Source: a virus. Taken from it: 39,863 nt of DNA. Of this stretch, positions 20,558 to 38,088 are shown piece by piece. A program made the translations under genes and the position numbers. The DNA is taken from the IMG/VR virus record IMGVR_UViG_3300030012_005034, positions 1 through 39,863 of that record. One strand, 5' to 3'. Below the pieces are notes generated by a model. The model ran no database searches. It was not told the origin of the DNA and saw nothing but the letters and a program-made list of their open reading frames with translations. Within the stretch, counting starts at the first letter, position 1, and each line of letters begins with the position of its first letter.

Positions 20558-20558
20558 T

Positions 20559-21997: not shown

Positions 21998-22002
21998 GAG
22001 TG

Positions 22003-22833
22003 GTGAAAAAAATAACTATAACTGGCGCAAATGGTTTCATAGGAAAAAATTTATCTAACTATTTAACTAACAAAGGTTTTAAGGTTAGTAAGTTCGATAT
22101 TTCTTTAGGGCATTTTGGATTGCCTGATATTTATGGGCAAGATGTTGTAATACATCTTGCCGCTAATCCTGTTACAACTGAAAAAAATTTAAAAAAGATT
22201 TTAAGTCAAAATTTTGAGTATTCTAAAAAACTATATAAACTTTGTAAAAATAACGGAGTAGCTTTTCAATATGCTAGTAGCGCTTCTGTTTATGGTTGTT
22301 CTGATAATTTTAATGAATCTGATTTTTGCAAACCACTAAGTCCGTATTCTTTCAGTAAATACATGTTTGACTGCTGGCTTTTAAATCAAAACTACCCCTA
22401 TCAAGGCTTTAGGTATTTTAATGTATACGGGCTTGGAGAAGAAAAAAAGGGAAATCAGGCTAGCCCTATATCAAAATTTATTAAGCAAGCGCGAGATAAT
22501 AAAGAAATTATCCTTTTTGAGAAAAGCGAAAATTATAAAAGAGATTTTGTTTCTGTAGACGATGTATGTGCTATTCATTATAAAATGTTAAGCTCAGAAG
22601 CTACGGGTATTTATAATGTCGGAACTGGAATAGCTGTTTCTTTTAAAGAAGTGGCTCAAATCATAAAAAATAAATTTAGTTGCAAAATTAAAGAAATTGC
22701 TATGCCGAAAGAATTAAAGGGTCAATATCAAAAGTTTACACAAGCAGATAATACAAAACTTTTAAAGGTTGTGGGGGATTATAAGTGGGAATCTATAAAT
22801 GAATATTTAGTTAAAATATCAAATTATTTATAA
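22003..22833 (+). CDS. NAD-dependent sugar epimerase, HldD/RfaD-like
   Basis: A 276-residue extended short-chain dehydrogenase. The start is taken as the GTG at 22003 (22000 is also GTG), because the frame's earlier GTG at 21982 lies inside the previous gene. Motifs seen: GANGFIGKN (Rossmann), ASSASVYG (catalytic Ser region) and Y-x-x-x-K in SPYSFSK. Beyond the general fold, it shares features with ADP-L-glycero-D-manno-heptose 6-epimerase: FRYFNVYGLGEEKKGNQAS, RDFVSVDDV, and LKGQYQKFTQAD near the C-terminus. It is about 30 residues shorter than bacterial HldD. It would epimerise an NDP-heptose; a different but related hexose or heptose cannot be excluded. Confidence 0.75.
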   Translation: MKKITITGANGFIGKNLSNYLTNKGFKVSKFDISLGHFGLPDIYGQDVVIHLAANPVTTEKNLKKILSQNFEYSKKLYKLCKNNGVAFQYASSASVYGCSDNFNESDFCKPLSPYSFSKYMFDCWLLNQNYPYQGFRYFNVYGLGEEKKGNQASPISKFIKQARDNKEIILFEKSENYKRDFVSVDDVCAIHYKMLSSEATGIYNVGTGIAVSFKEVAQIIKNKFSCKIKEIAMPKELKGQYQKFTQADNTKLLKVVGDYKWESINEYLVKISNYL

Positions 22834-22834
22834 A

Positions 22835-23230
22835 ATGAAATTAATTTGGACAAATGGTTGTTTTGACGTTCTACATAGGGGGCACATTGAACTTTTTAAA
22901 TATGCTAAATCTCTAGGAGATGTTCTTTATGTAGGTATCGACTCAGATTCAAAAGTAAAAAAAGAAAAAGGCGATAAAAGACCCTACAATAATCAAGTTG
23001 ATAGGATTGAACTTTTAAAATCAATTAAATATATAGATAAAATATTTCTTTTTGAAAACTCAAAAGAATTAGATAATATTATTAAATCTATAAGACCAAA
23101 TATCATGGTTATAGGCTCTGATTGGAAAAATAAAATTATAGTAGGAGAATCTCATTCTAAAAAAGTAGTTTTTTTTGATAGGATACCCAACTACTCAACA
23201 ACTAATATACTAAAATGTTATCGCCCATAG
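22835..23230 (+). CDS. Nucleotidyltransferase, HldE C-domain/TagD-like
   Basis: A 131-residue cytidylyltransferase-fold enzyme. The active site H-x-G-H is at residues 14-17 (TNGCFDVLHRGHIELF), followed by LYVGIDSDSKVKKEKGDKRP and a C-terminal YSTTNIL, which equals the I-S-T-T-x-I motif of this fold. These residues match the nucleotidyltransferase half of HldE (RfaE domain II), which joins ADP or another nucleotide to heptose-1-phosphate. It starts one base after the epimerase stop. With the kinase at 20559 it makes a split HldE. The nucleotide used (ATP, CTP or GTP) cannot be decided. Confidence 0.8.
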   Translation: MKLIWTNGCFDVLHRGHIELFKYAKSLGDVLYVGIDSDSKVKKEKGDKRPYNNQVDRIELLKSIKYIDKIFLFENSKELDNIIKSIRPNIMVIGSDWKNKIIVGESHSKKVVFFDRIPNYSTTNILKCYRP

Positions 23231-23586
23231 TTTTTAACACTGAAAAATGCTCAGAATGTATCGTACATAAAAGTTGGGGGCACGAGATTATTTTTGAAAA
23301 TAATGAAAAGTATTGCGGTAAACTTCTTGTTTTTAATAAGGATTCGAACTTTTCAATGCACTATCATTTGATAAAAGATGAGGCTTGGTATGTACAAAGT
23401 GGAGAATTTTTATTTACTTGGATAGATCTTGAAAAAGCAGAAAAAAAAGAAAAAAAAATAGTAAAAGGCGATTGTGTAAGAATTCGCACTGGTCAACCGC
23501 ATCAATTAAAAACTTTAACTGGAGGAACTATTTTTGAAGTTTCTACTAAACATTTTGACGAAGATTCTTATAGAATTTGGCGATGA
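23215..23586 (+). CDS. Cupin-domain protein
   Basis: A 123-residue single-domain cupin. The first cupin motif is visible as FSMHYHLIKDEAWYVQSGEF (two His, Glu), and the second as RIRTGQPHQLKTL (His). Similar small cupins in sugar clusters act as mannose-6-phosphate isomerase-like proteins or as keto-sugar isomerases or epimerases, but substrate residues are not diagnostic. It overlaps the nucleotidyltransferase by 16 bases and the HAD phosphatase by ATGA, so it is part of the pathway operon. If the pathway lacks a GmhA-type isomerase, this cupin is one candidate for an isomerase step; that is speculation. Confidence 0.65.
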   Translation: MLSPIVFNTEKCSECIVHKSWGHEIIFENNEKYCGKLLVFNKDSNFSMHYHLIKDEAWYVQSGEFLFTWIDLEKAEKKEKKIVKGDCVRIRTGQPHQLKTLTGGTIFEVSTKHFDEDSYRIWR

Positions 23587-23876
23587 AAATATACGTGGAT
23601 ATAGATGAAACAATTTGTTTTTATACAGGTAAGCGTAGATATCAACTAGCAAAGCCTAACTACGATAATATAAAAAAAATAAATGATCTTTACGATGATG
23701 GCCACAATATAATTTACTGGACTGCTAGAGGATGTCGATCAAAAACCGATCGCACAGAATTAACATTAAAACAGCTTAAAGATTGGGGCTGTAAGTACCA
23801 TGAGGTTATTTGCAATGAAAAACCAGACTATGATTTATTAATTTGTGATAAAACAAAGAGAATCGAGGAGATATAA
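23583..23876 (+). CDS. Small HAD-family phosphatase
   Basis: A 97-residue protein when started at the ATG overlapping the previous stop (ATGA); a TTG six bases earlier is less likely. It has HAD motif I DIDET (D-x-D nucleophile pair), motif II in IIYWTARG (Thr) and a C-terminal KPDYDLLICDK that can provide the motif III Lys and motif IV Asp. No cap domain is present, which suits small polar sugar phosphates. In a heptose pathway it would fill the place of GmhB (removal of the 7-phosphate). It ends the gene run; a 75-base gap follows. Confidence 0.7.
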   Translation: MKIYVDIDETICFYTGKRRYQLAKPNYDNIKKINDLYDDGHNIIYWTARGCRSKTDRTELTLKQLKDWGCKYHEVICNEKPDYDLLICDKTKRIEEI

Positions 23877-23951
23877 ACAATATAGAAATTAAAAGTTAAC
23901 AATACATAATAATTTGATATTTGCACAGATTATATTTTAAATTAAAAAAAA
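23877..23951 (+). other. AT-rich gap before the GDP-mannose genes
   Basis: 75 non-coding bases. It contains TTGATA (23914-23919) and TATATT (23931-23936), but only 11 bases apart, so they do not form a normal promoter. An A-rich run precedes the ATG at 23952 with no Shine-Dalgarno. It may still hold a phage-specific promoter. Confidence 0.3.
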
Positions 23952-24974
23952 ATGAATAAAACAGCATTAATTTTAGGAGGTGGAGGTTTTATTGGAGGTC
24001 ACCTCGCAAAAAAACTTAAAAGCGAAGGTTACCATGTAAGAGCAGTAGACATTAAACATCATGAATATTTTAATTGGTCAGATATATGTGATGAGTTTAT
24101 AAAAGCTGATTTGACAGATGCAAAAATAGTTCAGGATGTTGTTAGAATTTCTTCAAAACATAATTTTGATGAGGTTTATCAGTTAGCTGCTGATATGGGT
24201 GGAGCAGGATATATATTTACAGGAGAGAATGATGCTAATGTCATGCAAAATTCTGCATTAATTAATTTGCACTTAGCAAAAGAAGCTGTAAAACAAAAAG
24301 TTGGTAAGGTTTTTTACTCATCTTCAGCATGCATCTATCCAGAACACAATCAACTTGATCCTGATAATCCTAATTGCGAGGAATCTTCAGCATATCCTGC
24401 AAATCCAGATTCTGAATATGGATGGGAAAAATTATTTAGTGAAAGGTTATACTTAGCATTTCAAAGAAATTATGGACTTAATGTAAAGATAGCTAGATTT
24501 CATAATATCTTCGGTCCCCAGGGAACTTGGCAAGGTGGAAAAGAAAAAGCTCCAGCTGCCATGTGCCGCAAAGTAGCAGAATGTAATGATGGAGAAGAAA
24601 TTGAAGTATGGGGAGATGGAAAACAAACTAGATCTTTTTTATATATTGATGAGTGTTTGAAAGCTATTGAGAGGTTCATGGCTCAAGATGATTTTTCTGG
24701 CCCAGTTAATATAGGCTCAGAAGAAATGGTAACTATTAATGAATTAGCAGAACTAGCTATTAAATCATCAGGCAAAAATATATCTATAAAAAATCTTTTT
24801 GGTGAAGAGTTTGAAAAAAAATATGGTCATAAATGCCCATTAGGGGTGAAGGGTAGAAACTCAGATAATACTCTTTTTAAAAAACAAATGGGTTGGGATT
24901 CACAAAAACCATTACTAGAAGGAGTAAGCTCAACATATAAATGGATAGAAGAGAAAGTTAATGAAAAAAGATGA
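23952..24974 (+). CDS. GDP-mannose 3,5-epimerase-like enzyme
   Basis: A 340-residue extended SDR very like plant GDP-mannose 3,5-epimerase (GME), which makes GDP-L-galactose. Seen: GGGGFIGGHLAK (NAD site), QLAADMGGAGYI, C127 in SSSACIYPE, Y156/K160 (Y-x-x-x-K), then FHNIFGPQGTWQGGKEKAPA with K199 and WGDGKQTRSFLYIDEC. C127 and K199 are the counterparts of the catalytic Cys and Lys of GME, which GDP-fucose synthases do not share in this context. It would epimerise C3 and C5 of GDP-mannose. It overlaps the dehydratase gene by 14 bases. Length is close to the plant enzyme without its N-terminal extension. Confidence 0.82.
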   Translation: MNKTALILGGGGFIGGHLAKKLKSEGYHVRAVDIKHHEYFNWSDICDEFIKADLTDAKIVQDVVRISSKHNFDEVYQLAADMGGAGYIFTGENDANVMQNSALINLHLAKEAVKQKVGKVFYSSSACIYPEHNQLDPDNPNCEESSAYPANPDSEYGWEKLFSERLYLAFQRNYGLNVKIARFHNIFGPQGTWQGGKEKAPAAMCRKVAECNDGEEIEVWGDGKQTRSFLYIDECLKAIERFMAQDDFSGPVNIGSEEMVTINELAELAIKSSGKNISIKNLFGEEFEKKYGHKCPLGVKGRNSDNTLFKKQMGWDSQKPLLEGVSSTYKWIEEKVNEKR

Positions 24975-26046
24975 TGTTGTAATTATTATTACTGGTGTTA
25001 CTGGCCAAGACGGTAGTCTGATGGCAGACTACTTACTTAAAAATACAAAACATACAATTATCGGTGGAGTTAGACGATTAAGTGTTAAAAACCATGATAA
25101 CATATTACACTTAACTGATAATCCAAGATTTTTTCTTATTGATTTAGATGTTACTGACCCTCAAAATATAGATAAGGTAATATCAGAATACAAGCCTCAT
25201 TACTTTATAAATTTTGCAGCAAATTCTTTTGTTGCAAACAGTTGGACTCAACCAGTAAATCACATGATGACAAACTGCATGGCTGTTTTGCATCAACTTG
25301 AAGCTATTAAGAAGCACTGTCCAAATTGTAGATATTATAACGCTGGATCATCTGAAGAATTTGGAGATGTTGTAGTAGAGCCACAGAATGAAGAGCACCC
25401 ACTTAGACCAAGAAGTCCATATGGGGCTTCAAAATGTTCTGCTAGGCATTTAGTAAAAGTATATAGAGATTCATACGGTTTGTATGCGGTTCAGGGTTGG
25501 TTATTTAATCATGAAGGCACTAGGAGAGGTTCAGAATTTGTTACAAGAAAAATAACTGAAAATGTCGCTCGTATTAATAATGAATATATTAACAAAAAAA
25601 CTTTTGAACCTTTAAGGCTTGGTAATATCGAATCTAAAAGAGATTGGAGTGATGCTGAAGATTTTATGGATGGTGTGTGGAGAATGTTAAATCAAGAAAA
25701 GTATTGGACTAACATCTGGAAAAAAACACCTGATGATTATGTATTATCATCAGATCGAACGCATACGATAAAAGAATTTGTTGAAGAAGCTTTTAATGCA
25801 GCAGGATTTCATAGATCAATGTGTAGGTGGGAGGGTTTAGATGAAAATTGTAAATATTTTCATGGGGATGATTTGTTAATGGAAGTTGATCCAAAATTTT
25901 ACAGACCAGCAGAAGTTGATTTATTATTAGGAGATTCAAGCAGGGCTAGAAATGAGCTTGATTGGAAACCTAAAAGTAGTTTTATAGATTTAGTAAGAAA
26001 GATGGTTGACAATGACATAAAAATCATTAATTCTAAGCGTGTCTAA
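24961..26046 (+). CDS. gmd: GDP-mannose 4,6-dehydratase
   Basis: A 361-residue SDR that removes water from GDP-D-mannose to give GDP-4-keto-6-deoxy-D-mannose, precursor of GDP-L-fucose, GDP-rhamnose and GDP-perosamine. Seen: ITGVTGQDGSLMADYLL (NADP site), AGSSEEFGD (Ser/Glu of the active site), SPYGASK (Y-x-x-x-K), LFNHEGTRRGSEFVTRKIT and LGNIESKRDWSDAEDFMDG, all family signatures, and a C-terminal RPAEVDLLLGDSSRARNEL. No GDP-fucose synthase (Fcl) is seen nearby, so the keto product must be used by a host or unseen enzyme, or by another protein here. It shares 8 bases with the next gene's GTG start. Confidence 0.9.
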   Translation: MKKDDVVIIITGVTGQDGSLMADYLLKNTKHTIIGGVRRLSVKNHDNILHLTDNPRFFLIDLDVTDPQNIDKVISEYKPHYFINFAANSFVANSWTQPVNHMMTNCMAVLHQLEAIKKHCPNCRYYNAGSSEEFGDVVVEPQNEEHPLRPRSPYGASKCSARHLVKVYRDSYGLYAVQGWLFNHEGTRRGSEFVTRKITENVARINNEYINKKTFEPLRLGNIESKRDWSDAEDFMDGVWRMLNQEKYWTNIWKKTPDDYVLSSDRTHTIKEFVEEAFNAAGFHRSMCRWEGLDENCKYFHGDDLLMEVDPKFYRPAEVDLLLGDSSRARNELDWKPKSSFIDLVRKMVDNDIKIINSKRV

Positions 26047-26386
26047 AAAAACAAAACTTAATAAAAGACAAATCTTAGAAAATCTTTTAATTATCCCAGA
26101 AAAAGGTCGTAGACCTTTTTTTTCGCGCGAGATGAAGCTTTTAAATGATTTATGTTCTAAATATTCGCAAGAATTTATGAGCATAGTTTCTTTTCCAAAA
26201 AAATTTGAATCATTAAAATATTTAATTAGCCCTAAATTAACAGACACTTTAGATGAAAAGTTTAGAGCATTTAATTTTAAAGTAGACTTTTCAAAATACC
26301 CAAACTATAATATCGGCGATAAGTTTGGCAAAGATGCCAAAATAAAAACTACTAAAAAAACAATTAGAGATTTTTTAAATGAGTGA
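26039..26386 (+). CDS. Conserved hypothetical protein linked to UvsX
   Basis: A 115-residue basic protein starting at a GTG inside the end of gmd. It contains a compact conserved-looking core, RRPFFSREMKLLNDLCSKYS, and a Lys-rich C-terminus. No known domain is recognised. It overlaps the recombinase gene by eight bases; with that coupling, a mediator or accessory role in recombination is possible, but nothing in the sequence proves it. Confidence 0.5.
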   Translation: MSKKTKLNKRQILENLLIIPEKGRRPFFSREMKLLNDLCSKYSQEFMSIVSFPKKFESLKYLISPKLTDTLDEKFRAFNFKVDFSKYPNYNIGDKFGKDAKIKTTKKTIRDFLNE

Positions 26387-27488
26387 AGGACCAGACCCAA
26401 ACGATATTCTTGGTAATTTTTTGAAATCCAATAAAAGCGATCATTATAACTTTGAAAAAGAGGTAGACTATAAAGTTTCTAGCGGCTCTTTACAGTTTGA
26501 CTTAAACATGAACGGCGGCTTTGGGCCTGGGTTGCATCGTTTCACTGGTCTTACAGAAGGTGGTAAGACCTCTGAAGCTTTAGAGGTTATGAAAAATTTT
26601 TTAAACACTGTAGATAAACCTAGAGGCTTGTATATTAAAGCTGAAGGTAGGCTTGCTCCAGAAGTAAGAAATAGATCAGGTGTAAAGTTTGTGTGGTCGG
26701 CAGATGAGTGGGAAGATGGTACTTGTTTTGTTTTTGAAACAAATATCTATGAAACAGCAATGACTTGCATCAAACAGTTGATAGACGATGTAAAAAATCC
26801 TCAAAAATATTGTTTTATATTAGATTCTGTTGATGGCTTGACAGCAAAAAATGATACTGCTAAAGGTTTTGAAGAGTTTGCTAAAATAGCCTCTGGAGCC
26901 TCTATTGCAGCTAGGTGGTGTGCTCAAACTAGTATTGCTTTGGGTAAGAGAGGTCATATGGCGATATTTATCAGTCAAGTTAGATCACAAATGAAAGATA
27001 AATATTCTAAAGAGCCTGATAATGTAGGTTTGGCTACAGGAGGATATGCTTTACAACATTACGCCAATACGTGCATTCAATTTCAGCCAAGAATTAAAGC
27101 AGACTTGATCCTTCAAAACCCCAGCTTAAAAGTTGTAGATGAGAAAAAAAATCCTATTATTGGGCACTTTGCAAAAGTGTTGATAGCAAAATCTCCAAAT
27201 GAAAAATCAAATGTGAGATTGTCTTATCCTGTAAGATACAATAGATCTGGTGGCACTTCTATTTGGATTGAAAAAGAAATTGTAGATTTGCTATACGCTT
27301 GGGAGTTCGTAGAAAAAAAAGGCTCTTGGATCAAGCCTACAGAAGATTTTAAAGACTTGTTAAAAGAAAATAAACTAGATTTTCCAGAGCAGATACAAGG
27401 AGATAACAATTTATTTAAAACTCTTGATGAAAACAGTAAGCTTTGTGACTTTTTGATAAAGTATTTCAAAAAACAAATTGGAGTATGA
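26379..27488 (+). CDS. uvsX: UvsX/RecA-like recombinase
   Basis: A 369-residue P-loop ATPase. The start, SSGSLQFDLNMNGGFGPGLH, matches the RecA/UvsX region ahead of Walker A; Walker A is GLTEGGKT (57-64) with K63; the Walker B strand is CFILDSVDG near residues 146-155, followed by GHMAIFISQVR, a strand in the place of the RecA Q-loop. The protein is closer to T4 UvsX-type recombinases than to bacterial RecA in its lack of a C-terminal acidic domain. It forms filaments on ssDNA for strand exchange in recombination-dependent replication and repair. It is in an operon with a PD-(D/E)XK nuclease and helicase. Confidence 0.85.
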   Translation: MSEGPDPNDILGNFLKSNKSDHYNFEKEVDYKVSSGSLQFDLNMNGGFGPGLHRFTGLTEGGKTSEALEVMKNFLNTVDKPRGLYIKAEGRLAPEVRNRSGVKFVWSADEWEDGTCFVFETNIYETAMTCIKQLIDDVKNPQKYCFILDSVDGLTAKNDTAKGFEEFAKIASGASIAARWCAQTSIALGKRGHMAIFISQVRSQMKDKYSKEPDNVGLATGGYALQHYANTCIQFQPRIKADLILQNPSLKVVDEKKNPIIGHFAKVLIAKSPNEKSNVRLSYPVRYNRSGGTSIWIEKEIVDLLYAWEFVEKKGSWIKPTEDFKDLLKENKLDFPEQIQGDNNLFKTLDENSKLCDFLIKYFKKQIGV

Positions 27489-27892: not shown

Positions 27893-28134
27893 ATATTGAA
27901 GATGAAGAAAGTGATTTTCATATACCAAGTGAAATGGTTGATAAAATGTATGAGCTTTCAGGTGGCGCAGATAAATATAAAGGGATCATAATGGCTGTTT
28001 CATCTGAAAATGGTAAGCCATTAATATATAGGAAATTCGATTGTGCTATGACTCAATTAGCTTTAACTAAATGTTTACAAGACTTTTTTGAAAGCTCTGT
28101 GGTAGAAAAAACAAGTGAGGACGATGAAGAATGA
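27889..28134 (+). CDS. Small acidic hypothetical protein
   Basis: An 81-residue acidic protein ending EDDEE. It has no recognised domain. The middle (YKGIIMAVSSENGKPLIYRK) looks like two beta strands, followed by a helix (CAMTQLALTKCLQDFF). Both ends overlap neighbours by ATGA, so it is certainly in the replication operon. A helicase- or nuclease-associated role is only a guess. Confidence 0.5.
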   Translation: MNIEDEESDFHIPSEMVDKMYELSGGADKYKGIIMAVSSENGKPLIYRKFDCAMTQLALTKCLQDFFESSVVEKTSEDDEE

Positions 28135-29651
28135 TATACTCTTATGAGCTAGAAAAACAGCTTTTAGCAGGTTTATTAAAAGAGCCTCAAGCATTGACAG
28201 AAATATGTAATTTCATAAATATCTCTGATTTTTATTCTGAGCAATCATCTCTAAATAGCACGATATTTAGAATTATAGAACAAGCCGTAAATGCTGGAGA
28301 GGATGTTGATGAAATTATCATTGCTCAAAGAGTTAACGATGTGGGGATATCATTTGAAGACAATTTAAACCCTTCAGATTATATAAAGTCTTTATCACTA
28401 AGAAAAGTTCCCTCTGGCAACACAATCAAAACAGCCAAAGAACTTAAGAAATATTCTATTAGGCGAGAGATATTTAAATCATCTAATACCATAGCGAAAA
28501 GGATGAAAGGAATGTCTCCTGAGTCCTCTTATTCAGATATTATTGAAGCTGCTGATAAAATTTATAATTCCAAGATAAATTTATATGAGATTGGCAATGA
28601 TATTCCTGTGAATATATATGATGATATGGAAAGTATCATTGAGGAAAGAGGTAATAACCCTATCACTGAGTTTGGTATGCTTGGGCCTCATGAAAAAGTT
28701 AATCAAATGTATGGCTCTTTATTGAGACCTGGAAATATAACTGTGGTTGTCGCTAGATCAGGAGTTGGTAAAACTCAGTTCTGTATGGATTATTGCACAA
28801 AGGTAAGTTTAAAATATAATGTACCTGTTTTGCATTTTGACAACGGTGAGATGAGTAAGGAAGAACTTATAATGAGGCAATGTTCAGCTTTATCTAATAT
28901 TCCAATGCATTTGTTAGAAAGTGGTAAATGGAGACAGGCTGGTAAGAATGTTGTTGAAAAAGTTAGATCGGTCTGGGCAAAGATAAAAGACTTAAAGTTT
29001 TATTATTATAATGTAGGGGGAATGGATGTAGACTCAATGATAAACACATTGAAAAGATTTTATTATTCTAAAGTAGGCAGAGGCAACAATATGGTTTTTT
29101 CTTTTGACTATATTAAAACAACTTCTGAGTCTACTATGAATAAATCTGAGTGGCAAATTGTTGGAGAGATGGTTGATAAATTTAAAAAATGTGTGCAAAA
29201 AGAAATTTTGCATAACAGTGAGCCTATAATACCCATGATTACTTCTGTTCAATCAAATAGGTATGGCATAACAAATAATAGAAATTCAGATTCAATAGTT
29301 GATGACGAATCAGTTGTGTCTTTATCTGATAGAATAACACAATTTTGTTCTCACATGTTCATATTGAGAAATAAGACTGCTGATGAAATAGAGAGGGAGG
29401 GGGCATCTTTTGGCACTCATAAACTTATAAATGTCAAGTCTAGACATTTAGGTAGCGATATAGCTGGAGCTATAGAGCCTGTTAGAGTTGGAGATACATT
29501 AAGAAAAAATTCAATTAATTTAGATTTTAATAATTTTAATATAACTGAAAGAGGCGACTTAAGAGATATAGCTCGTGTATTAAATGGTGAAATTGAATTA
29601 AACACAGATGGAGAGCAACAAGAAATACCAGACTTTGATCAGCTCGGATGA
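28131..29651 (+). CDS. Replicative DNA helicase, DnaB-like
   Basis: A 506-residue hexameric-type helicase. The N-terminal helical domain (YSYELEKQLLAGLLKEPQAL) and an HTH-linker region precede a RecA-like motor with Walker A ARSGVGKT (208-215). Next comes VPVLHFDNGEMSKEELIMRQ, the counterpart of the DnaB motif with its Ser-Leu-Glu-Met turn, and a Walker B strand NMVFSFDYIK. The C-terminus has FGTHKLINVKSRHLG, in the place of the DnaB arginine-finger region. It unwinds the fork and loads with the primase encoded next, with which it overlaps by 44 bases. No loader (DnaC-type) is recognisable in the window. Confidence 0.88.
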   Translation: MIYSYELEKQLLAGLLKEPQALTEICNFINISDFYSEQSSLNSTIFRIIEQAVNAGEDVDEIIIAQRVNDVGISFEDNLNPSDYIKSLSLRKVPSGNTIKTAKELKKYSIRREIFKSSNTIAKRMKGMSPESSYSDIIEAADKIYNSKINLYEIGNDIPVNIYDDMESIIEERGNNPITEFGMLGPHEKVNQMYGSLLRPGNITVVVARSGVGKTQFCMDYCTKVSLKYNVPVLHFDNGEMSKEELIMRQCSALSNIPMHLLESGKWRQAGKNVVEKVRSVWAKIKDLKFYYYNVGGMDVDSMINTLKRFYYSKVGRGNNMVFSFDYIKTTSESTMNKSEWQIVGEMVDKFKKCVQKEILHNSEPIIPMITSVQSNRYGITNNRNSDSIVDDESVVSLSDRITQFCSHMFILRNKTADEIEREGASFGTHKLINVKSRHLGSDIAGAIEPVRVGDTLRKNSINLDFNNFNITERGDLRDIARVLNGEIELNTDGEQQEIPDFDQLG

Positions 29652-30681
29652 TTTTCAGCAAACTTTAGAATCTTTAGGGTATAATTTAGTAGATTGTGGA
29701 GATCATTGGAGAACTCAAGCTTTATATAGAAATGGCGACAATAAAACTGCCCTTAAAATATATAAAAATACAGGAGTATGGATGGATTTTGTCGAAAACA
29801 AAGGGTCTCAACCCTTTGAATCTCTTGTTAGAGCCACTGCATTATTAAGAAATGAAGATTATACATCAATAATTTCAAAAATTAAGTCTGGTACTGTAGA
29901 ACAATATGTAAAGAAGCAGACTATAGAAATGGAAAAGGTTTACCCTATAAAATCTTTAGATAAATTATTTCCTAATTATAAATTTTATAATGATAGAAAT
30001 ATATCTGAGGAAACTCAAAAACTTTTTGATGTGGGTTTAGCTGGTGTTGGTAAAATGTATAGAAGGATGGTCTTTCCAATATTTAATGAACATCAACAAA
30101 TTATAGGTTTTTCTGGAAGAAAAGTCGATAATAACAATAATTATCCAAAATGGAAACACATTGGAAAAAGAAATAATTGGGTTTACCCAGCTTTTAATGT
30201 AAAAACAGGCGTAAACGAGGCTATTGAACAAGATAAAACAGTAATATTAGTAGAAAGTATAGGAGATGCTCTTGCCCTTTATGAACAAAATTTTAAAAAC
30301 GTGCTTGTCATATTTGGCTTATGCGTTAACAACAATATCATTAATTTTCTTAGCAGTAAGTGCGTTAACCGTATCTATATCTGTACTAATAATGATGGCA
30401 ATAGTTCAGAAAATAGAGGACATATTGCAGCTGTTAAAAACTACTTAAAACTGTCAAAATACTTTGATTTACAAAATTTAAGTATAAAAATGCCTCCAAA
30501 ATCATATAATGACTTTGGTGATGCCCATTTAGATAATTTTGAGCTTAAAGATTGGTACTATGAAAGCATAGACCAGTATCAACAGCTTCAAAAAATTTTA
30601 AAATTTGTCGATAAAAATAATTCATGCTTCACTAAGAAAGAAATAAAGACTTCGTTAGTGTTAAGCAATGAATACTCCTGA
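29608..30681 (+). CDS. DNA primase, Toprim type, lacking a canonical zinc ribbon
   Basis: A 357-residue primase. The ATG lies 44 bases inside the helicase gene; a later ATG at 29648 is in another frame. The N-terminal region (HWRTQALYRNGDNKTALKIY) follows the CHC2-type fold order but has only one Cys (VDCGDH). The Toprim domain is seen in VILVESIGDALALYE (Glu) and IYICTNNDGNSSENRG, where the usual D-x-D reads N-N-D. A middle FPIFNEHQQIIGFSGRKVD segment matches phage primase cores. It makes RNA primers for Pol III. Whether the altered metal site still works needs testing. Confidence 0.75.
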   Translation: MESNKKYQTLISSDDFQQTLESLGYNLVDCGDHWRTQALYRNGDNKTALKIYKNTGVWMDFVENKGSQPFESLVRATALLRNEDYTSIISKIKSGTVEQYVKKQTIEMEKVYPIKSLDKLFPNYKFYNDRNISEETQKLFDVGLAGVGKMYRRMVFPIFNEHQQIIGFSGRKVDNNNNYPKWKHIGKRNNWVYPAFNVKTGVNEAIEQDKTVILVESIGDALALYEQNFKNVLVIFGLCVNNNIINFLSSKCVNRIYICTNNDGNSSENRGHIAAVKNYLKLSKYFDLQNLSIKMPPKSYNDFGDAHLDNFELKDWYYESIDQYQQLQKILKFVDKNNSCFTKKEIKTSLVLSNEYS

Positions 30682-31693
30682 CACGCCTCTATCTGCAAGT
30701 AGAATTAAAACGGCTCAATCCTGTTCTTGGCTTTACTGGTGTAAATATAAATTAAATTTACCAGATAAAAGTAATGATGGCGCAAAAAGGGGTTCTATTT
30801 GTCATTTAATTTTCGAAGTTTTAGGCGTAAAAAAAAGAAAAAAATATTTTAATAAAATTATAAAAACACAAGATGTTTTCTCTGTTAAGTCTATTAAAAG
30901 GCTTATATTGAAACATGCACATAAAGAGGGTGTTGACGATACTGAGAATGTAGAGTTGATGAAGGATATGATATTTAATGGCTTAACTTATGATTTTTTC
31001 GGGCATGAATTAGGAAAACCAACGCAAGAATATTCTGAAAAGGATTTTTTGATTGTAGAGAATAATGGCGAGATAAAATATAAAATTAGAGGATTTATAG
31101 ACAAATTATTTTTATACAAAACAAAAAAGTTTGCCATTATAAGAGATTTTAAAACTAGTAAATCAGTTTTTAAGGGTAAAGATCACACTGACAACCTTCA
31201 AGATTTAATGTACAGCTTAGCTGTTAAAAAAATGTTTCCAGAGTATGCCACTAGGGTCAGTGAATTTTTATTCCTAAAATTTGATTTAGATGAGAATTCT
31301 AATAACAGCGGCTTGGTAAAAATGAAGCCTTTAGATAATGAAGAGCTTTATGGTTTTGAGATGCAATTGTCTGAAATACAGAGATATCTAGATAATTTCT
31401 CTATAAAGGATGCAAAAAGTAGCTATGCAGCTTATAAAGACTTCCCAAAAGATGGATCATTTAGTGGGAAACTTTTATGTGGATTTGCAAAAGAAAAAGG
31501 TGAATTAAAAATAGATGGAAATCCAAAATGGCATTGCCCTATGAAATTTGACTTTTTCTATTACAAAATTTTCAATAAAGAAGGAGATTTTCACTCATCT
31601 TTATTTGAAGATGATTTTGATGAAAAATTATTACCCAAAGGATTTTCTTATGAATTAAAATATTATGAGGGTTGTCCCGCTCATTTAAGTTGA
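30668..31693 (+). CDS. PD-(D/E)XK nuclease, Cas4/RecB-like
   Basis: A 341-residue nuclease. Signature elements in order: LSASRIKTAQSCSWLYW (N-terminal S-x-S-R-I...C), RGSICHLIFE (G-x-x-x-H), RGFIDKLFLY (the G-F-I-D acid) and IIRDFKTSK (the D-x-K pair), matching RecB/Cas4/AddB-type nucleases. Cysteines at 19 and 25 and near the C-terminus (LLCG, WHCP, EGCP) could hold an iron-sulfur cluster as in Cas4, but the spacing is not the classic one. It probably trims DNA ends during recombination or degrades host DNA. It overlaps the primase by 14 bases. Confidence 0.72.
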   Translation: MNTPDTPLSASRIKTAQSCSWLYWCKYKLNLPDKSNDGAKRGSICHLIFEVLGVKKRKKYFNKIIKTQDVFSVKSIKRLILKHAHKEGVDDTENVELMKDMIFNGLTYDFFGHELGKPTQEYSEKDFLIVENNGEIKYKIRGFIDKLFLYKTKKFAIIRDFKTSKSVFKGKDHTDNLQDLMYSLAVKKMFPEYATRVSEFLFLKFDLDENSNNSGLVKMKPLDNEELYGFEMQLSEIQRYLDNFSIKDAKSSYAAYKDFPKDGSFSGKLLCGFAKEKGELKIDGNPKWHCPMKFDFFYYKIFNKEGDFHSSLFEDDFDEKLLPKGFSYELKYYEGCPAHLS

Positions 31694-31696
31694 CAT

Positions 31697-32443
31697 GTGA
31701 AAATTGGTTTATATATTTCTTATATGACCCCAGTTTTTAAGTCAGATTATTCTATAGGCAAAAGCATTTTAACTATAGATAATATTATAAATCTTCACAA
31801 AAAAAGTAATCAAAATTTTTTATTATTAGTTGAAGATTCGATGACTGGTTTTGTTAAAGCTCATAACATAACAAAACAAAATAATATTCATCTTGTTTTT
31901 GGATTGAGAATTTCTTGCTGTAACGATATTCATAAACAGAGTGATAATTCAGATCATAAAATTGTAATTTTGGCAAAAAATGATAAAGGATGTAAGCTAT
32001 TAAATAAAATATATTCTCATGCACATATAGGTAATGAAGGTAATATTGATTTTAATTACTTAAATAAAATATGGGACGACAATAGTTTACAGCTAATAAT
32101 ACCTTTTTATGATTCATTTATATATCAAAATCAGCTGCACTTAAAAAACTGCATACCTAATTTTAATAAAATTAAACCTATTTTTTGGATAGAAAAAAAT
32201 AATCTACCTTTCGATAGTATTGTATCTGAAGCTGTCTTTGATTACTCAAAAGATAAATATGACACAGAACTAGTAAAAAGTATCTTATATGAGAAAAAAA
32301 ATGAAGCAGAAGCTTTACAAACTTATAAAATAATATGTGGCAGAAAGTTTGGTAGGCCATCTACTTTAAGTTGCCCTAATCTAAATCATTTTGGTAGCAA
32401 TGAATTTTGTTTTGATAGTTATAAGGAGTATGTAAATGGATGA
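31697..32443 (+). CDS. Stand-alone PHP-like domain of DNA polymerase III alpha
   Basis: A 248-residue protein starting with GTG three bases after the previous stop. It resembles the N-terminal PHP domain of DnaE, usually fused to the polymerase: SDYSIGKSILTIDNIINLHK, LLVEDSMTGFVKAH (T-D-x-x-x-x-G-A-x-x-F counterpart), and NNIHLVFGLRI (the I-K-x-I-x-G-x-E counterpart). The metal-binding H-x-H near the start of bacterial PHP is replaced (YISYMTPVFKSDYS), so phosphatase or exonuclease activity is probably lost. The C-terminus fits the DnaE segment joining PHP to palm. It overlaps the exonuclease gene by eight bases, and the polymerase proper follows. It likely acts as a structural subunit. Confidence 0.7.
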   Translation: MKIGLYISYMTPVFKSDYSIGKSILTIDNIINLHKKSNQNFLLLVEDSMTGFVKAHNITKQNNIHLVFGLRISCCNDIHKQSDNSDHKIVILAKNDKGCKLLNKIYSHAHIGNEGNIDFNYLNKIWDDNSLQLIIPFYDSFIYQNQLHLKNCIPNFNKIKPIFWIEKNNLPFDSIVSEAVFDYSKDKYDTELVKSILYEKKNEAEALQTYKIICGRKFGRPSTLSCPNLNHFGSNEFCFDSYKEYVNG

Positions 32444-33068
32444 CACTTTATTAAGATTTAATAAAAATCAAAAGTATATTGTTTTTGATACTGAAACTGA
32501 AGGTTTAAATTTAATTAATTCAAGACCTTGGCAAATAGCTTGGCTTGTAGTAAAAGGCGATGAAATACAAGAAAAGCATGATAAATTTATACATTGGCCG
32601 AATATAAATGTATCTGAAGGGGCGGCTAAAGTTACAGGTTTTTCAGAAAAAAAATATTATTCGAAAGCTATACCTCCAAATGAAGTTTGGGATGAGTTTT
32701 GTAAACACCTTTACGATCAAGATACATTAATTGTTGGTCAAAATTTACTTGGGTTTGATGTGTACATGGTTGATGTATGGCGTAGAGCAATGGGTAAAAA
32801 ATTAGATCAAAGTTATGTTAAAAGGATTATAGATACTAAAGCTTTAGCAACTGCCATAGCTAAAAATATACCTTATAATAATCATAAATTTATTAACTGG
32901 CAATATAGACTTTTAAACTATAAGGAAAGAGGTTTAAAAACATCACAGGGTTTTTTATTGAAGCATTATAATATAAAACATGATCCTAAAAAACTTCATG
33001 ATGCACTTTATGATATAGAAATGAATTTCAAAATATTTAAAAAGCAACTTTTTGACTTAGAGATATGA
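32436..33068 (+). CDS. DnaQ-like DEDDh 3'-5' exonuclease (proofreader)
   Basis: A 210-residue exonuclease. Catalytic residues are all seen: D18 and E20 in VFDTETEG, D108 in LIVGQNLLGFDVYMVD, and H188/D193 in LHDALYDIE, giving the DEDDh set of the Pol III epsilon subunit. Residues NVSEGAAKVTGFS match the S-x-x-A-x-x-V-x-G-I segment of the family. It would remove misincorporated bases for the polymerase encoded next. It overlaps the PHP-like gene by eight bases and the polymerase by ATGA, so it sits physically between the two halves of DnaE. The long tail needed by bacterial epsilon to bind alpha is absent. Confidence 0.88.
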   Translation: MDDTLLRFNKNQKYIVFDTETEGLNLINSRPWQIAWLVVKGDEIQEKHDKFIHWPNINVSEGAAKVTGFSEKKYYSKAIPPNEVWDEFCKHLYDQDTLIVGQNLLGFDVYMVDVWRRAMGKKLDQSYVKRIIDTKALATAIAKNIPYNNHKFINWQYRLLNYKERGLKTSQGFLLKHYNIKHDPKKLHDALYDIEMNFKIFKKQLFDLEI

Positions 33069-35635
33069 TATTATCTGATTATAAGACCTATGAAACACCA
33101 TTTCCAGTTGGTGTGAAACTACCAGAAATCAAGATAGAAAAAAAATATTATGACGAGGTTGCTTGTAAAGACTTGGAAGATAACTATCAGTTTTTGAGAA
33201 AGCTTTGTTTCAACAGGTTAAAACAAAAAGGGATACATCAATTACAAAATGCTCAAGTTTACTATGACAGGTTAAAAGAGGAGTTACAAATTTTTGAAGA
33301 TCTTGGGTTTATTGATTATGTTCTTTTAAACTGGGATATAATAAATTTTTGTGTGCAAAATGATATTCCTGTTGGTGCTGGTAGAGGTAGTGCTGCTGGG
33401 TCTTTAGTTCTATATGTAATCGGAGTTACAGATATAGACCCCATAGAGCATGATTTATTTTTTGAAAGATTTGTTTCTAAAAGTAGGGCTAAAAAAATAG
33501 AGCATAAAGGTGAAATATATTTAGATGGCAGTCTATTAGCTGATGTTGATAATGACATTTCTTATGATCGCAGATCTGAGGTTATAGAATACATAGAAAA
33601 AAAATTTAAAGGTAGAACCTCTAAAATTTTAACCTTAAATACGTTAAGCAGTAAACTCTGCATGAAAGAATGTTGCAAAATTGTTGAAGAACTTTCAGAG
33701 GCTGAAGTAAATATAATTAGTGAAAGCATACCTAAAACTTTTGGAAAGGTAGCTAGTTTAGATAAAGCTTGTAAGGAAAGCGAAACATTCAAAAAGCATG
33801 CTGATGATCATCCAAAAGCGTTTTCTATAGCAAAAAAACTAGAGGGTCTAAATAAAAATACAGGAGTTCACCCATCAGGTATTTCAATATCATTTTTCGA
33901 TCTTGAAGATATCATGCCTTTACAATTAACTAATGACGATTCATTAGTATCAGCTTATGATATGAATGACGTAGCTAGCTTAACAGTAAAATTTGATATA
34001 TTAGGTTTAAGAACTTTATCAGTTGTTAATGATGTTTGCAAACAGCTTGATATAAATGTAAAAGATATAAATCCTCATGATCCGTCAATATATGCAGCTT
34101 TATCATGCTTACGCTGCCCTCAAGGATTATTTCAAATTGAAGCAGATACAAACTATAAAGTTTGTCGCACTATATGCCCTAAAAGTTTAGAGGAGTTATC
34201 TGCTGTTGTTGCTATAGCAAGACCTGGAGCTTTAGAGTTCTTAGATTATTATGCAGCATATGCTAAAACAGGTGATTTTTCATCTGTTCATGAGTTTTTT
34301 GACGACATCTTAAGTTACACAGGGGGAATACCACTATACCAAGAGCAGCTTATGAAAATGGCTGTAAAAGTGGGATTTAGTTTAGATGAATCTGAGCAGC
34401 TAAGAAGAATAATTGGTAAGAAAAAAGTTGATCAGATGCCAGCTTGGAAGGCTAAAATAACAGAAAAAATAAAACAAAATAATTTAGACCCTAAAATTGG
34501 TAAAGTTTTATGGAAGGTCGCTGAAGATTCAGCTAATTATTCTTTTAATAAGTCGCATTCAATAAGTTATGCTTACTTAGCTGCAATAACAGTTTATTTA
34601 AAGTTTAATTATCCAAAAGAGTTCTTTTTAAGCCTTTTAAAATATGCAAAATATGAGCCAAACTCTCATGAAGAAATAGCAAAAATCACTCAAGAGCTTT
34701 CATCATTTAACATCAAACTTTTACCACCTGATTTAAATAAGTCTGATATAGATTTTAAAATAGAAGGCTCAAACATAAGATATGGATTAAATTCTATCAA
34801 AGGGGTTTCGGATAAAGTTTTAGAGTCATTATTAAATTTCAGAGAGGAGAGTTTTTCTAATAAGTATGACATTTTTGTCTGTGCTAAACAGGCTGGAATG
34901 AATATAGGAATTTTATCAGCTTTGATACAAGCTGGATTATTAGATTCTTTTGTTTCTTCAAATAGATGCCGCTTAGTTCTTGAAGCTCAAACATTTAATA
35001 TACTAACTGATAGAGAAAAGCGTAATTTTATAGAGCTTGGATCAAAATATGATTTTGATATTTTAAATTCAGTGCATGATCAATATTCTAATAAGTCTGT
35101 TGGCGATGATGGAAGACTTATAATGACTGAGAAAAGATTTCAAACTTTTAAAAAGAAGTATAGCCCATATAAAGATATTTATGAAATGAACAAGAAGTAT
35201 CTTAGATATGCTAATTGGTTTTTCGAAAATAAGCTACTAGGGTATAGTTATTCTCACAAATTAAAAGATATTTTTGATTTATCTCAAGACTTCATATCTG
35301 CTGAAAAAATTAAAATAGAGTCTAATGAAGAATCTCCTGCTTTTACAGACTTAAAATTCATAGGTGTTGTTACAGACTCTGTAAAAAGAACTAGCAGGAA
35401 TGGCAATAAATATGTTAGATTAGATTTACAAGATGAAAGTGCGCTTATAAGCGCTTTATTTATGGATTCTGAAAGAGAGCAAAAATTAACAAATTACTTA
35501 AATTCTGGCAAAAAAATACCTAAAAAAGAGGACATTGTCATAATTAATGGTAGATTAGGAGATGATATTATATTTATTGAAAAAATGCATTCATTAAAGG
35601 ATAAAATCTACATGAAGCTATCTGAGATAAAATAG
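33065..35635 (+). CDS. dnaE: DNA polymerase III alpha subunit, PHP-less
   Basis: An 856-residue polymerase, shorter than bacterial DnaE (about 1160) because the PHP domain is missing and encoded separately at 31697. Seen: GAGRGSAAGSLVLYVIGVTD (palm entry), LLADVDNDISYDRR with D162 and D164 (counterparts of E. coli D401/D403), HPSGISIS, and VKFDILGLRTL with D311 (D555). Then come fingers, GIPLYQEQLMKMA, FNKSHSISYAYLA, an HhH-like part, and a C-terminal OB-fold (FIGVVTDSVKRTSRNGNKYV). A roughly 15-residue insertion lies before the DVDND loop. It is the main replicative polymerase of the phage. No beta clamp or loader gene is visible. Confidence 0.9.
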   Translation: MILSDYKTYETPFPVGVKLPEIKIEKKYYDEVACKDLEDNYQFLRKLCFNRLKQKGIHQLQNAQVYYDRLKEELQIFEDLGFIDYVLLNWDIINFCVQNDIPVGAGRGSAAGSLVLYVIGVTDIDPIEHDLFFERFVSKSRAKKIEHKGEIYLDGSLLADVDNDISYDRRSEVIEYIEKKFKGRTSKILTLNTLSSKLCMKECCKIVEELSEAEVNIISESIPKTFGKVASLDKACKESETFKKHADDHPKAFSIAKKLEGLNKNTGVHPSGISISFFDLEDIMPLQLTNDDSLVSAYDMNDVASLTVKFDILGLRTLSVVNDVCKQLDINVKDINPHDPSIYAALSCLRCPQGLFQIEADTNYKVCRTICPKSLEELSAVVAIARPGALEFLDYYAAYAKTGDFSSVHEFFDDILSYTGGIPLYQEQLMKMAVKVGFSLDESEQLRRIIGKKKVDQMPAWKAKITEKIKQNNLDPKIGKVLWKVAEDSANYSFNKSHSISYAYLAAITVYLKFNYPKEFFLSLLKYAKYEPNSHEEIAKITQELSSFNIKLLPPDLNKSDIDFKIEGSNIRYGLNSIKGVSDKVLESLLNFREESFSNKYDIFVCAKQAGMNIGILSALIQAGLLDSFVSSNRCRLVLEAQTFNILTDREKRNFIELGSKYDFDILNSVHDQYSNKSVGDDGRLIMTEKRFQTFKKKYSPYKDIYEMNKKYLRYANWFFENKLLGYSYSHKLKDIFDLSQDFISAEKIKIESNEESPAFTDLKFIGVVTDSVKRTSRNGNKYVRLDLQDESALISALFMDSEREQKLTNYLNSGKKIPKKEDIVIINGRLGDDIIFIEKMHSLKDKIYMKLSEIK

Positions 35636-35646: not shown

Positions 35647-38088
35647 ATGATGGGTTTAACAGATTTCAATTTAACTCCAAAAGCTAAAAAATGTATAAAA
35701 GATTCTAAAGCTTTTGCGCAGTCGAATAACCATAAATTGATAAATATAAGTCATTTAATTTATGGATGTTTAATTAATTTATCTGATAGTTGTTTAGTTA
35801 AATTAAAAAGTTTTGGATTTGATCCAGATATAAAAGAATTTTTAAAGCTATTCAAAGAGTTTTGCAAAGAGAGAAAAGATTTATATGATACTGATGAAGA
35901 AGGTTGGCATGAAGAAGTCAATGAAGTAATCTTTTTCGCCAAAGATTTTTCAGATAACTTTGATAGTTATTTCATAGGGGTCGAGCACATACTTTATGTA
36001 ATTTTTGATATGGATGGAGACTTTGTAAAATTTTTAAAAAGCAAAAACATTGATGTACAATATGGCAAAGAAATAATAGAGGCTCATGTTATTGAGACAG
36101 CAATACCATCTTCAGATCAGGTTAAAAATATTTTTCACATAGAGGGTAAAAAAGTTTTTTCTTTTGAAAAATCTGACACTAAAAAAGCTTTAAAAAGCAT
36201 AGAAATATTAGACAAATACTGTGTCAATCTAAACCATAAATTTATAACAGAAAACTCCTCAACAATTTCTTGTAGAGATTCAGAAATAAATGAATTGATT
36301 GAAATTTTGTTGAAAAAAAATAAATGTAATGCAGTGCTTATTGGCGATGCTGGCGTGGGTAAAACTGCTATAGTAGAGGGATTAGCTCAAAAAATTGTAA
36401 ATCAAAAAGTGCCCTGCCATTTAGCTTTAATGCAGGTATATTCAGTTGATATTACTTCTATGCTGGCTGGTACAAAGTATCGTGGTGAGTTTGAACAAAG
36501 ATTTAAACAATTGATAGATGAAGTTTCTAAAGATGAAAATATCATACTATTTATTGATGAAATACATACTATAATTGGAGCTGGTAGTTCTGAGGGTGGT
36601 GTTGACGCGTCGAATATGTTAAAGCCAGCGTTAGCTCGTGGTAACTTGAAATGTATAGGAGCTACAACTTTTCAGGAATATAAAAAATTCTTTGAGAAAG
36701 ATTCTGCAATCACAAGACGCTTTGATAAAATTGTAGTTAATCAACCCAGCAAAGCTGATACTAAAAAAATAATAGTAAACACTCTAGAATACTATGAAGA
36801 TTTTCATCATGTTAAATATGAAGAAAAGGAAATAGATTTAATTTTAGATTTGTGTGAAACATTTTTAAGTAATAAAAATTTTCCAGATAAAGCGTTTGAT
36901 GTAATCGATCAAGTTGGAGCTAAAACTAAAATAAAATATTTTAAAAATTCAGATAAAGTCACTGATGCTCGTGGAACTTTTACTGATTTGATAAAAAATT
37001 TAGATAACGATTCAGAATTTGACGAGACTAAATTCACTGAAATCATCAAAGATTATATCACTACAATGTCTACATTTATGGATTCAAAGGGTAAAGGTAG
37101 AAAAAGAAAAATTAGGGAAAAAGATATAATAGATGTTGTTAGTGAAAAAAGTGGTATATCGCAAAAAGCCATCATGCAAAAAAAGAATATTTTTTCTAAA
37201 TTTATGGAAAATATAAAATCTGAGGTTTTTGGTCAAGATGATGCATTAGAAAGAATATACAGCAACCTGTCATGCGCTAAAACTGGGTTATCAGATAAAA
37301 ATAAACCCTTATCAAGTTTTTTGTTTATAGGTTCTACTGGAGTTGGTAAAACATTTACAGCTAAAAATATAGCTAAATACTTTTTTGGTAGTGAAAAATC
37401 GTATATACAGCTCAATATGAGCGAATATCAAGACAAAACTAGTATAAATAAACTAATTGGCGCAAGCGCTGGTTATGTTGGTTATGATGATGGAGGTATA
37501 TTATCTGAGCATGTAAGAAACAACCCTAATTGTGTCGTCGTTTTTGATGAAATAGAAAAATGTGAGCCTAAAATATTAGATATTTTATTGCATTTACTAG
37601 ATGAGGGATACATAACAGATAATTTGAATAGAAAAATTGATTTTAGTAATACAATAGTTGTTATGACATCAAATATAGGTCAGAGAGAAAAGCAAAAAAG
37701 AAGTATGGGATTTTTAGATGATTCTGATAGTCCTAAAAAATTAGAAAGCTCCGCTGTAAAAAAATATTTAAGACCAGAGTTGATCTCAAGGATAGATGAG
37801 ATATTGAGCTTCAATGATTTGCAAGATTCTGTTTATTTAAGTATTATTACAAAAGAAATCAAAAAACTTAAAGAAAGATTGCAGCTAAAAGGAGTTCACT
37901 TAAAAATAACTCCTCATGTTAAAAAATTTATTTTTAATGAAATAAAAAATAAAAAAATTCATGCGAGAGATATAAAAAGCTTTGTAAAGAAATTCATTCA
38001 ATTTCCTGTCTCTAAATACATTATGGAGCACAAAGATGTAGATACTGTTGGAGTTAAGGTGAAAAACAAAAGTATATGTTGCTTATAA
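35647..38088 (+). CDS. ClpA-type AAA+ unfoldase
   Basis: An 813-residue double-AAA+ protein. It has an N-terminal Clp-N-like repeat domain (about 1-150), D1 with Walker A GDAGVGKT (233-240), GTKYRGEFEQR (275-285) and Walker B ILFIDEIH, then D2 with Walker A GSTGVGKT (562-569) and Walker B VVFDEIEK. The long M-domain of ClpB is missing. After the sensor strand MTSNIGQR, residues EKQKRSMGFL place MGF (687-689) where E. coli ClpA has its IGL loop for binding ClpP. It would unfold proteins, perhaps feeding host ClpP. Phage use could be head maturation or host-protein turnover. No clpP is in view. The first of two tandem ATGs is used. Confidence 0.85.
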   Translation: MMGLTDFNLTPKAKKCIKDSKAFAQSNNHKLINISHLIYGCLINLSDSCLVKLKSFGFDPDIKEFLKLFKEFCKERKDLYDTDEEGWHEEVNEVIFFAKDFSDNFDSYFIGVEHILYVIFDMDGDFVKFLKSKNIDVQYGKEIIEAHVIETAIPSSDQVKNIFHIEGKKVFSFEKSDTKKALKSIEILDKYCVNLNHKFITENSSTISCRDSEINELIEILLKKNKCNAVLIGDAGVGKTAIVEGLAQKIVNQKVPCHLALMQVYSVDITSMLAGTKYRGEFEQRFKQLIDEVSKDENIILFIDEIHTIIGAGSSEGGVDASNMLKPALARGNLKCIGATTFQEYKKFFEKDSAITRRFDKIVVNQPSKADTKKIIVNTLEYYEDFHHVKYEEKEIDLILDLCETFLSNKNFPDKAFDVIDQVGAKTKIKYFKNSDKVTDARGTFTDLIKNLDNDSEFDETKFTEIIKDYITTMSTFMDSKGKGRKRKIREKDIIDVVSEKSGISQKAIMQKKNIFSKFMENIKSEVFGQDDALERIYSNLSCAKTGLSDKNKPLSSFLFIGSTGVGKTFTAKNIAKYFFGSEKSYIQLNMSEYQDKTSINKLIGASAGYVGYDDGGILSEHVRNNPNCVVVFDEIEKCEPKILDILLHLLDEGYITDNLNRKIDFSNTIVVMTSNIGQREKQKRSMGFLDDSDSPKKLESSAVKKYLRPELISRIDEILSFNDLQDSVYLSIITKEIKKLKERLQLKGVHLKITPHVKKFIFNEIKNKKIHARDIKSFVKKFIQFPVSKYIMEHKDVDTVGVKVKNKSICCL

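Follow-up and report, generated by a model that had tools for sequence, protein, structure and literature searches.

In known bacteria, the PHP domain and the polymerase of a C-family replicase form one chain. PHP is a general feature of such replicases, and a dead PHP domain may serve the polymerase structurally or chiefly as a platform for the proofreader. In E. coli, epsilon binds to the PHP domain (PMC3919608), which also stabilizes the polymerase; where the PHP metal site has been lost, a separate DEDDh proofreader is present (PMC3666897). The exonuclease of PolC sits inside PHP, and that of the Bacteroidetes DnaE1 is fused N-terminally, giving exonuclease, PHP and polymerase in one chain (PMC3919608). 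Among phages, a two-gene DNA polymerase III alpha has been reported in Microbacterium cluster EF (PMC7302621) and a minimal split Pol III alpha in the group 2.2 jumbo phages (PMC7824862). Here we analyzed IMG/VR virus record IMGVR_UViG_3300030012_005034, the whole of which (39,863 bases) is referred to as the window. Between positions 31697 and 35635 it encodes a PHP-fold protein, a DEDDh exonuclease (EXO) and a DnaE-type polymerase without PHP (POL) as separate products. We read this trio, with a probability of about 0.7, as one replicative DnaE-type polymerase made as three proteins, in which POL, EXO and a dead PHP scaffold would form a single core. The genes and their junctions are as follows.

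31697..32443, + strand: PHP-fold protein, apparently catalytically degenerate; conserved start ATG 31724 (239 aa)
32436..32443, + strand: overlap of the PHP and EXO genes, 8 nt
32436..33068, + strand: DEDDh 3'-5' exonuclease (EXO), 210 aa; RNase_T match, AGGAG upstream
33065..33068, + strand: stop/start overlap ATGA of EXO and POL, 4 nt
33065..35635, + strand: DnaE-type polymerase without PHP (POL), 856 aa; palm, thumb, fingers, helix-hairpin-helix (HhH) and a weak oligonucleotide-binding (OB) match

These three open reading frames (ORFs), in overlapping frames, had been described in a sequence-only reading of the window, and our analysis confirmed them. The first had been given as a PHP-like protein of 248 aa. 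Its relation to PHP held up, but its start did not: the family-conserved start is ATG 31724, where both the alignment and the model confidence begin, and the GTG at 31697, which adds nine residues of low model confidence, is probably unused. The AGGAG lies at ∼32425, ahead of the EXO start. At the EXO/POL junction, ATGA recurs in 66 of the 81 loci of our first set, suggesting that translation of the two genes may be coupled through it.

Scanning with POL returned 240 related stretches, and the PHP alignment recovered at least 567; once duplicates had been removed, 166 distinct loci with all three genes remained. The order PHP-EXO-POL on one strand was kept in all 166 without exception, and in every one of them PHP was encoded by a separate gene. 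No PHP-EXO or EXO-POL fusion was found, and among 197 further loci no ORF held two of the parts. The frame offset from PHP to EXO was +1 in 71 loci, +2 in 76 and 0 in 19 (the last were counted, not inspected singly, and contain no ORF that joins PHP and EXO). Since the offsets vary among loci, no single frameshift could join the two.

Inserts separated PHP from EXO in 37 loci and EXO from POL in 25. In different phages these comprised SET-domain, IMP dehydrogenase, mannose-6-phosphate isomerase cupin, FkbM methyltransferase and LAGLIDADG genes. Because both borders tolerate foreign genes, we consider PHP, EXO and POL to be separate genes. The trio junctions are insertion hot spots, with sites at L234:4851-5363, L226:4380-5357, L022:5664-6014, L024:5379-5993 and, on the minus strand, L077:5186-5971. 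The dN/dS ratios indicate strong purifying selection on each of the three genes (0.04-0.16 for PHP, 0.015-0.10 for EXO and 0.024-0.08 for POL).

The 8-nt and 4-nt overlaps in different frames might suggest that the separation is an artefact, due to an error in sequencing, to the decay of a pseudogene or to a programmed frameshift whose real product is one chain, and a frame-joining error had been a particular concern of the sequence-only reading. The split nevertheless recurs in 166 distinct loci with differing frame offsets and with whole genes inserted at both junctions, and an AGGAG before the EXO start, conserved catalytic residues and low dN/dS also speak against such an origin. At the sequence level we regard it as refuted, and we give it practically no credence.

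In Pfam, POL matched DNA_pol3_alpha (PF07733, 4e-60), the finger domain (PF17657, 1.6e-29) and HHH_6 (PF14579, 6.5e-18). An OB match (PF01336, residues 773-832, E = 0.0016) lies C-terminal to HhH and falls below the curated cut-off, and the profile matches included no recognizable C-terminal tau-binding domain. The catalytic residues D160 and D162 were present in 167/167 sequences and D311 in 163/163, with four further rows gapped. The nearest solved relatives of POL are DnaE enzymes (3e0d, 8e-104), with PolC far behind (3f2b, 2e-4). As far as sequence can tell, POL is thus clearly a DnaE-type C-family polymerase that begins at the PHP/palm boundary. A family-wide insertion of ∼14 residues (KIEH.GE.YLDGS region; window 33482-33520, POL ∼140-152), absent in E. 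coli and Thermus DnaE, directly precedes the catalytic aspartates. In one relative (L184:5995-8979) the POL gene is further interrupted by an intein-like insert in the motif NK^SHS. It consists of a Cys-starting stretch, stop codons and a Met-starting piece that ends ...VTSN ahead of SHSISY, and it looks like a split intein.

EXO matched RNase_T in Pfam (1.8e-15), and its DEDDh residues D18, E20, D108, H188 and D193 were invariant in 167/167 sequences, as expected for the complete 210-aa exonuclease that had been proposed. In the same 167/167 sequences the chain stopped exactly 17 residues past D193, so that the C-terminal tail with which E. coli-type epsilon binds alpha is missing from EXO. 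The commonest variants of the EXO C-terminus (window 33038-33065 and relatives) follow the pattern K-[QM]-[LI]-[FYW]-[DEN]-[LI]-[ED]-[LIV]-COOH. This fixed-length end might be a peptide by which EXO docks on PHP, POL or a clamp.

EXO might instead take part in recombination, remove primers or recycle nucleotides, its gene merely being cotranscribed with that of the polymerase, as DEDDh enzymes are functionally diverse (PMC3666897) and the alpha-binding tail of epsilon is missing. We consider this improbable, since the gene lies directly at the polymerase, a DEDDh exonuclease near alpha is also found in Pbunavirus, Wifcevirus and Vibrio phage RY-3, and an inactive PHP leads one to expect another proofreader (PMC12926913).

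The PHP protein matched PF02811 (PHP) at E = 2e-6, above the gathering score, and phrog_405 (phage DNA polymerase) at 4.9e-15. On the latter profile it covers positions 50-233 and POL covers 324-1078, collinearly; given these complementary spans, the PHP protein and POL jointly correspond to a single DnaE with the break between PHP and palm. Against PDB sequences, the PHP profile gave PolC as its sole match, below threshold, and identity was settled by fold search. The AlphaFold model of the standalone protein has seven strands, with a predicted local distance difference test score (pLDDT) of 81 and a predicted template modeling score (pTM) of 0.82. Its top structural matches were DnaE PHP domains (E. 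coli 2hnh, E = 1.4e-10, template modeling score 0.75), and PolC was weaker (2.8e-7). The protein has the PHP fold, and the relation to PHP on which the sequence-only reading depended is upheld by PF02811 and the fold match together.

None of the nine metal ligands (HHDHEH[C/H]DH) was kept in the aligned PHP members. K15, K22, R71 and K88 prevail in the family, and His87 lies one column off a ligand position. Since no metal ligand survives, PHP is predicted to be catalytically inactive by the metal-site criterion of PMC12926913.

The sequence-only reading had pointed to PolC, and one PolC-type gene could in principle have been turned into separate PHP, exonuclease and polymerase genes. The gene order fits, and so do the best PDB match of the EXO profile, the PolC exonuclease 2p1j (5.8e-8), and the NCBIfam match of EXO to polC_Gram_pos (8.5e-12). 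The epsilon model PRK06310, however, scores equally on EXO, so that neither a PolC-like nor an epsilon-like origin is favored. The values given above for POL and for the PHP model favor DnaE over PolC, the weak OB match is C-terminal, and EXO follows a whole PHP. Because POL is DnaE and EXO comes after a whole PHP, the trio fits the description of a DnaE that has been split, the gene of an exonuclease lying at the break, and we take the PolC derivation to be wrong, with very little probability left to it. That the proteins are of DnaE type, with PHP and exonuclease separately encoded and the polymerase beginning at the palm, had been recognized from the letters and is supported.

In the three-protein polymerase that we propose, POL would synthesize DNA and EXO would proofread for it. 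The dead PHP would act as a noncovalent scaffold that steadies the palm/thumb side of POL and helps to hold EXO, and the tight gene overlaps would keep the subunits at near-equal amounts. Assembly of the three products into one core is suggested by analogy with E. coli, with which the trio shares the pairing of a dead PHP and a live exonuclease; the phage PHP, however, is detached.

Several points weigh against this reading or fail to support it. In E. coli, PHP is bound by the tail of epsilon, which EXO does not have. An AlphaFold model of a read-through PHP-linker-POL chain (PHP and POL are in the same frame in the window; 70 rows), which contained a 208-residue nonsense linker, reached a pLDDT of 62 and a pTM of 0.44. 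It did not place PHP in a DnaE-like position (root-mean-square deviation ∼23 Å over both domains); given the nonsense linker, we weigh this model neither way. Distance-matrix correlation gave no PHP-POL signal beyond that of neighbors (partial r of 0.29, versus 0.28 for PHP-helicase). The insertion history set out below is argued from parsimony, the loci found include no close relative with an unsplit chain, and all contigs are metagenomic, none of them certified complete.

Some of these points, namely the missing covariation and the failed docking in the read-through model, would also suit a free PHP that has been repurposed as a regulator, a host-interaction factor or a nucleic-acid-binding protein and keeps only its place in the operon, with POL working with EXO alone. 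PHP moreover belongs to the faster-evolving part of the cassette (mean identity, 0.54, versus 0.71 for POL), and every metal ligand is lost. It has nevertheless kept a seven-strand DnaE-like fold under purifying selection, and in 166/166 loci its gene precedes those of EXO and POL despite the junction invasions, and surveys find PHP in C-family polymerases generally (PMC3666897). We therefore think repurposing unlikely, if somewhat less so than a nonproofreading EXO, and retain the scaffold role for PHP.

In phylogenetic analysis the POL family formed one long-stemmed clade (100/100), apart from the other phage DnaEs sampled. Its deepest members (47% identity; L291 and L298) are already split, and the split is thus ancestral to the family. 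Given that PHP and POL are collinear around EXO, the simplest history would be the invasion of a dnaE, at its domain boundary, by the gene of an exonuclease before the members of the lineage diverged. The polymerase of the cluster EF phage TinyMiny, itself a long branch, grouped instead with Pbunavirus, Wifcevirus and Vibrio phage RY-3 (100/99). Since the TinyMiny PHP keeps its ligands and the polymerase lies in another clade, the PHP/polymerase split would have arisen at least twice, and on this sequence evidence the cluster EF split is independent of the one described here.

The trio lies in a conserved cassette. Most relatives that reach far enough show the order helicase-primase-PD(D/E)XK-PHP-EXO-POL-Clp, and their contigs extend up to 211 kb. 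Its other members in the window are the following.

28131..29651, + strand: DnaB-like replicative helicase, which opens the conserved cassette; DnaB_C 4e-15, phrog_19 2.5e-39; same position in relatives
29608..30681, + strand: DnaG-like primase; DNAG_N 1.1e-7, phrog_47 1.5e-22
30668..31693, + strand: PD-(D/E)XK (Cas4/RecB-like) exonuclease; PF12705 5.5e-13, phrog_69 8e-13
35647..38088, + strand: Clp-type AAA+ unfoldase, conserved neighbor after POL; phrog_4871 1.7e-209

The Clp gene follows POL in nearly all relatives that extend that far. We surveyed the replisome genes of the 12 largest contigs (G001-G012, for example L301-L303; 134-211 kb, possibly incomplete). Each carries one C-family polymerase, with no PolA and no PolB. 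Since POL is the sole DNA polymerase found in these contigs and lies in a helicase-primase neighborhood, the trio is likely to be the replicase. No DnaN, the bacterial beta clamp, was found in these 12 contigs. An RFC/T4 gp44-like clamp-loader ATPase of ∼315 aa (phrog_168) is present in nearly all of them; phrog_168 also matches the Clp protein weakly, and for G011 a Clp-sized match was the only one listed. Of the T4 gp45 clamp models run on the 12 contigs, PF02916 gave no match, and neither did its control, and PF09116 gave one weak partial match (1.2e-4), below the cut-off. We tentatively raise the possibility of a mixed replisome, in which a three-subunit C-family core would use a phage RFC/T4 gp44-type clamp loader and an own, unrecognized clamp in place of the beta clamp. 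Were this true, a bacterial-type polymerase would be running on a T4-type processivity system.

Elsewhere in the window, a tape measure gene stands at the opening, and the regions 10014-12631 and 16322-27488 hold a class I ribonucleotide reductase pair, sugar-nucleotide epimerases, a UvsX-like recombinase, a glycosyltransferase-like gene and an alcohol dehydrogenase-like gene. The best POL identity among INPHARED phages was ∼30%, and the lineage is a widespread and abundant group of uncultivated large aquatic phages that has no close relative in the phage records searched. Four relatives (L181-L184) lie in contigs of metagenome-assembled genomes binned as Saprospiraceae, Flavobacteriaceae, Verrucomicrobiales and Proteobacteria; these bins point to conflicting hosts.

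A free PHP that has been cut off at a domain boundary and yet kept makes its role addressable by adding or omitting one protein rather than by mutating a domain, and the trio would make a compact replicase for reconstitution. With bacterial DnaE1 (E. coli, Thermus aquaticus) and epsilon/DnaQ, the trio shares palm, fingers and HhH with the catalytic aspartates, the PHP fold, a DEDDh exonuclease as its own protein and, as in proteobacteria, an inactive PHP with a DEDDh partner. It differs in that PHP is free, EXO lacks the alpha-binding tail, POL has no recognizable tau-binding domain and the genes adjoin. PolC likewise has PHP, a DEDDh exonuclease and the polymerase in a similar order. PolC, however, is one chain with the exonuclease within PHP and OB N-terminal to PHP, whereas in the trio a complete PHP with seven strands precedes EXO, the weak OB match lies C-terminally and POL is DnaE by sequence. 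The Bacteroidetes DnaE1 shares a dedicated DEDDh exonuclease that goes with a DnaE; the trio differs in having PHP first and all parts separate.

Among phages, Microbacterium cluster EF/Krampusvirus (AnnaSerena, Krampus and TinyMiny) resembles the trio in that PHP and a PHP-less polymerase are separate neighbors. In TinyMiny, a PHP protein of 344 aa is followed first by a protein of 63 aa that weakly matches a zinc ribbon and then by a DnaE of 753 aa without PHP, so that, in contrast to the trio, a small gene rather than an exonuclease lies in between, and the PHP keeps its metal ligands. The group 2.2 jumbo phages also divide Pol III alpha into separate proteins, but there the catalytic core itself is spread over genes that lie far apart, the remaining Pol III domains are missing and PolB is present. 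In the trio, the palm-to-HhH core is whole in one chain, and the 12 largest contigs hold no PolB. Pbunavirus, Wifcevirus and Vibrio phage RY-3 have the DEDDh exonuclease gene directly or closely upstream of a one-chain DnaE, whose alpha keeps an N-terminal PHP-like region that POL does not have. The "DNA polymerase III alpha subunit" annotated in phage nd4 is actually a stand-alone exonuclease. In Rossellomorea phage phiT1 (L095:3164-6446), two ORFs separated by a third of 150 nt encode the DnaE, and the break lies near the start of the fingers; this is another kind of phage DnaE split.

Separate genes in the exact order PHP, exonuclease, polymerase turned up neither among the named phages that we examined nor in the searched literature, outside which lay subscription papers and preprints. 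The earlier claim that this exact order is undescribed thus stands within these searches, but it needs the qualification that a two-gene Pol III alpha has been published (PMC7302621). A separate epsilon, PolC, the Bacteroidetes fusion, phage exonuclease-alpha pairs and the two-gene split of cluster EF were already known. New, as far as our searches go, is a DnaE that is interrupted between PHP and palm, where the gene of a DEDDh exonuclease lies, and whose PHP is free and apparently dead, an arrangement fixed throughout a large lineage of uncultivated phages.

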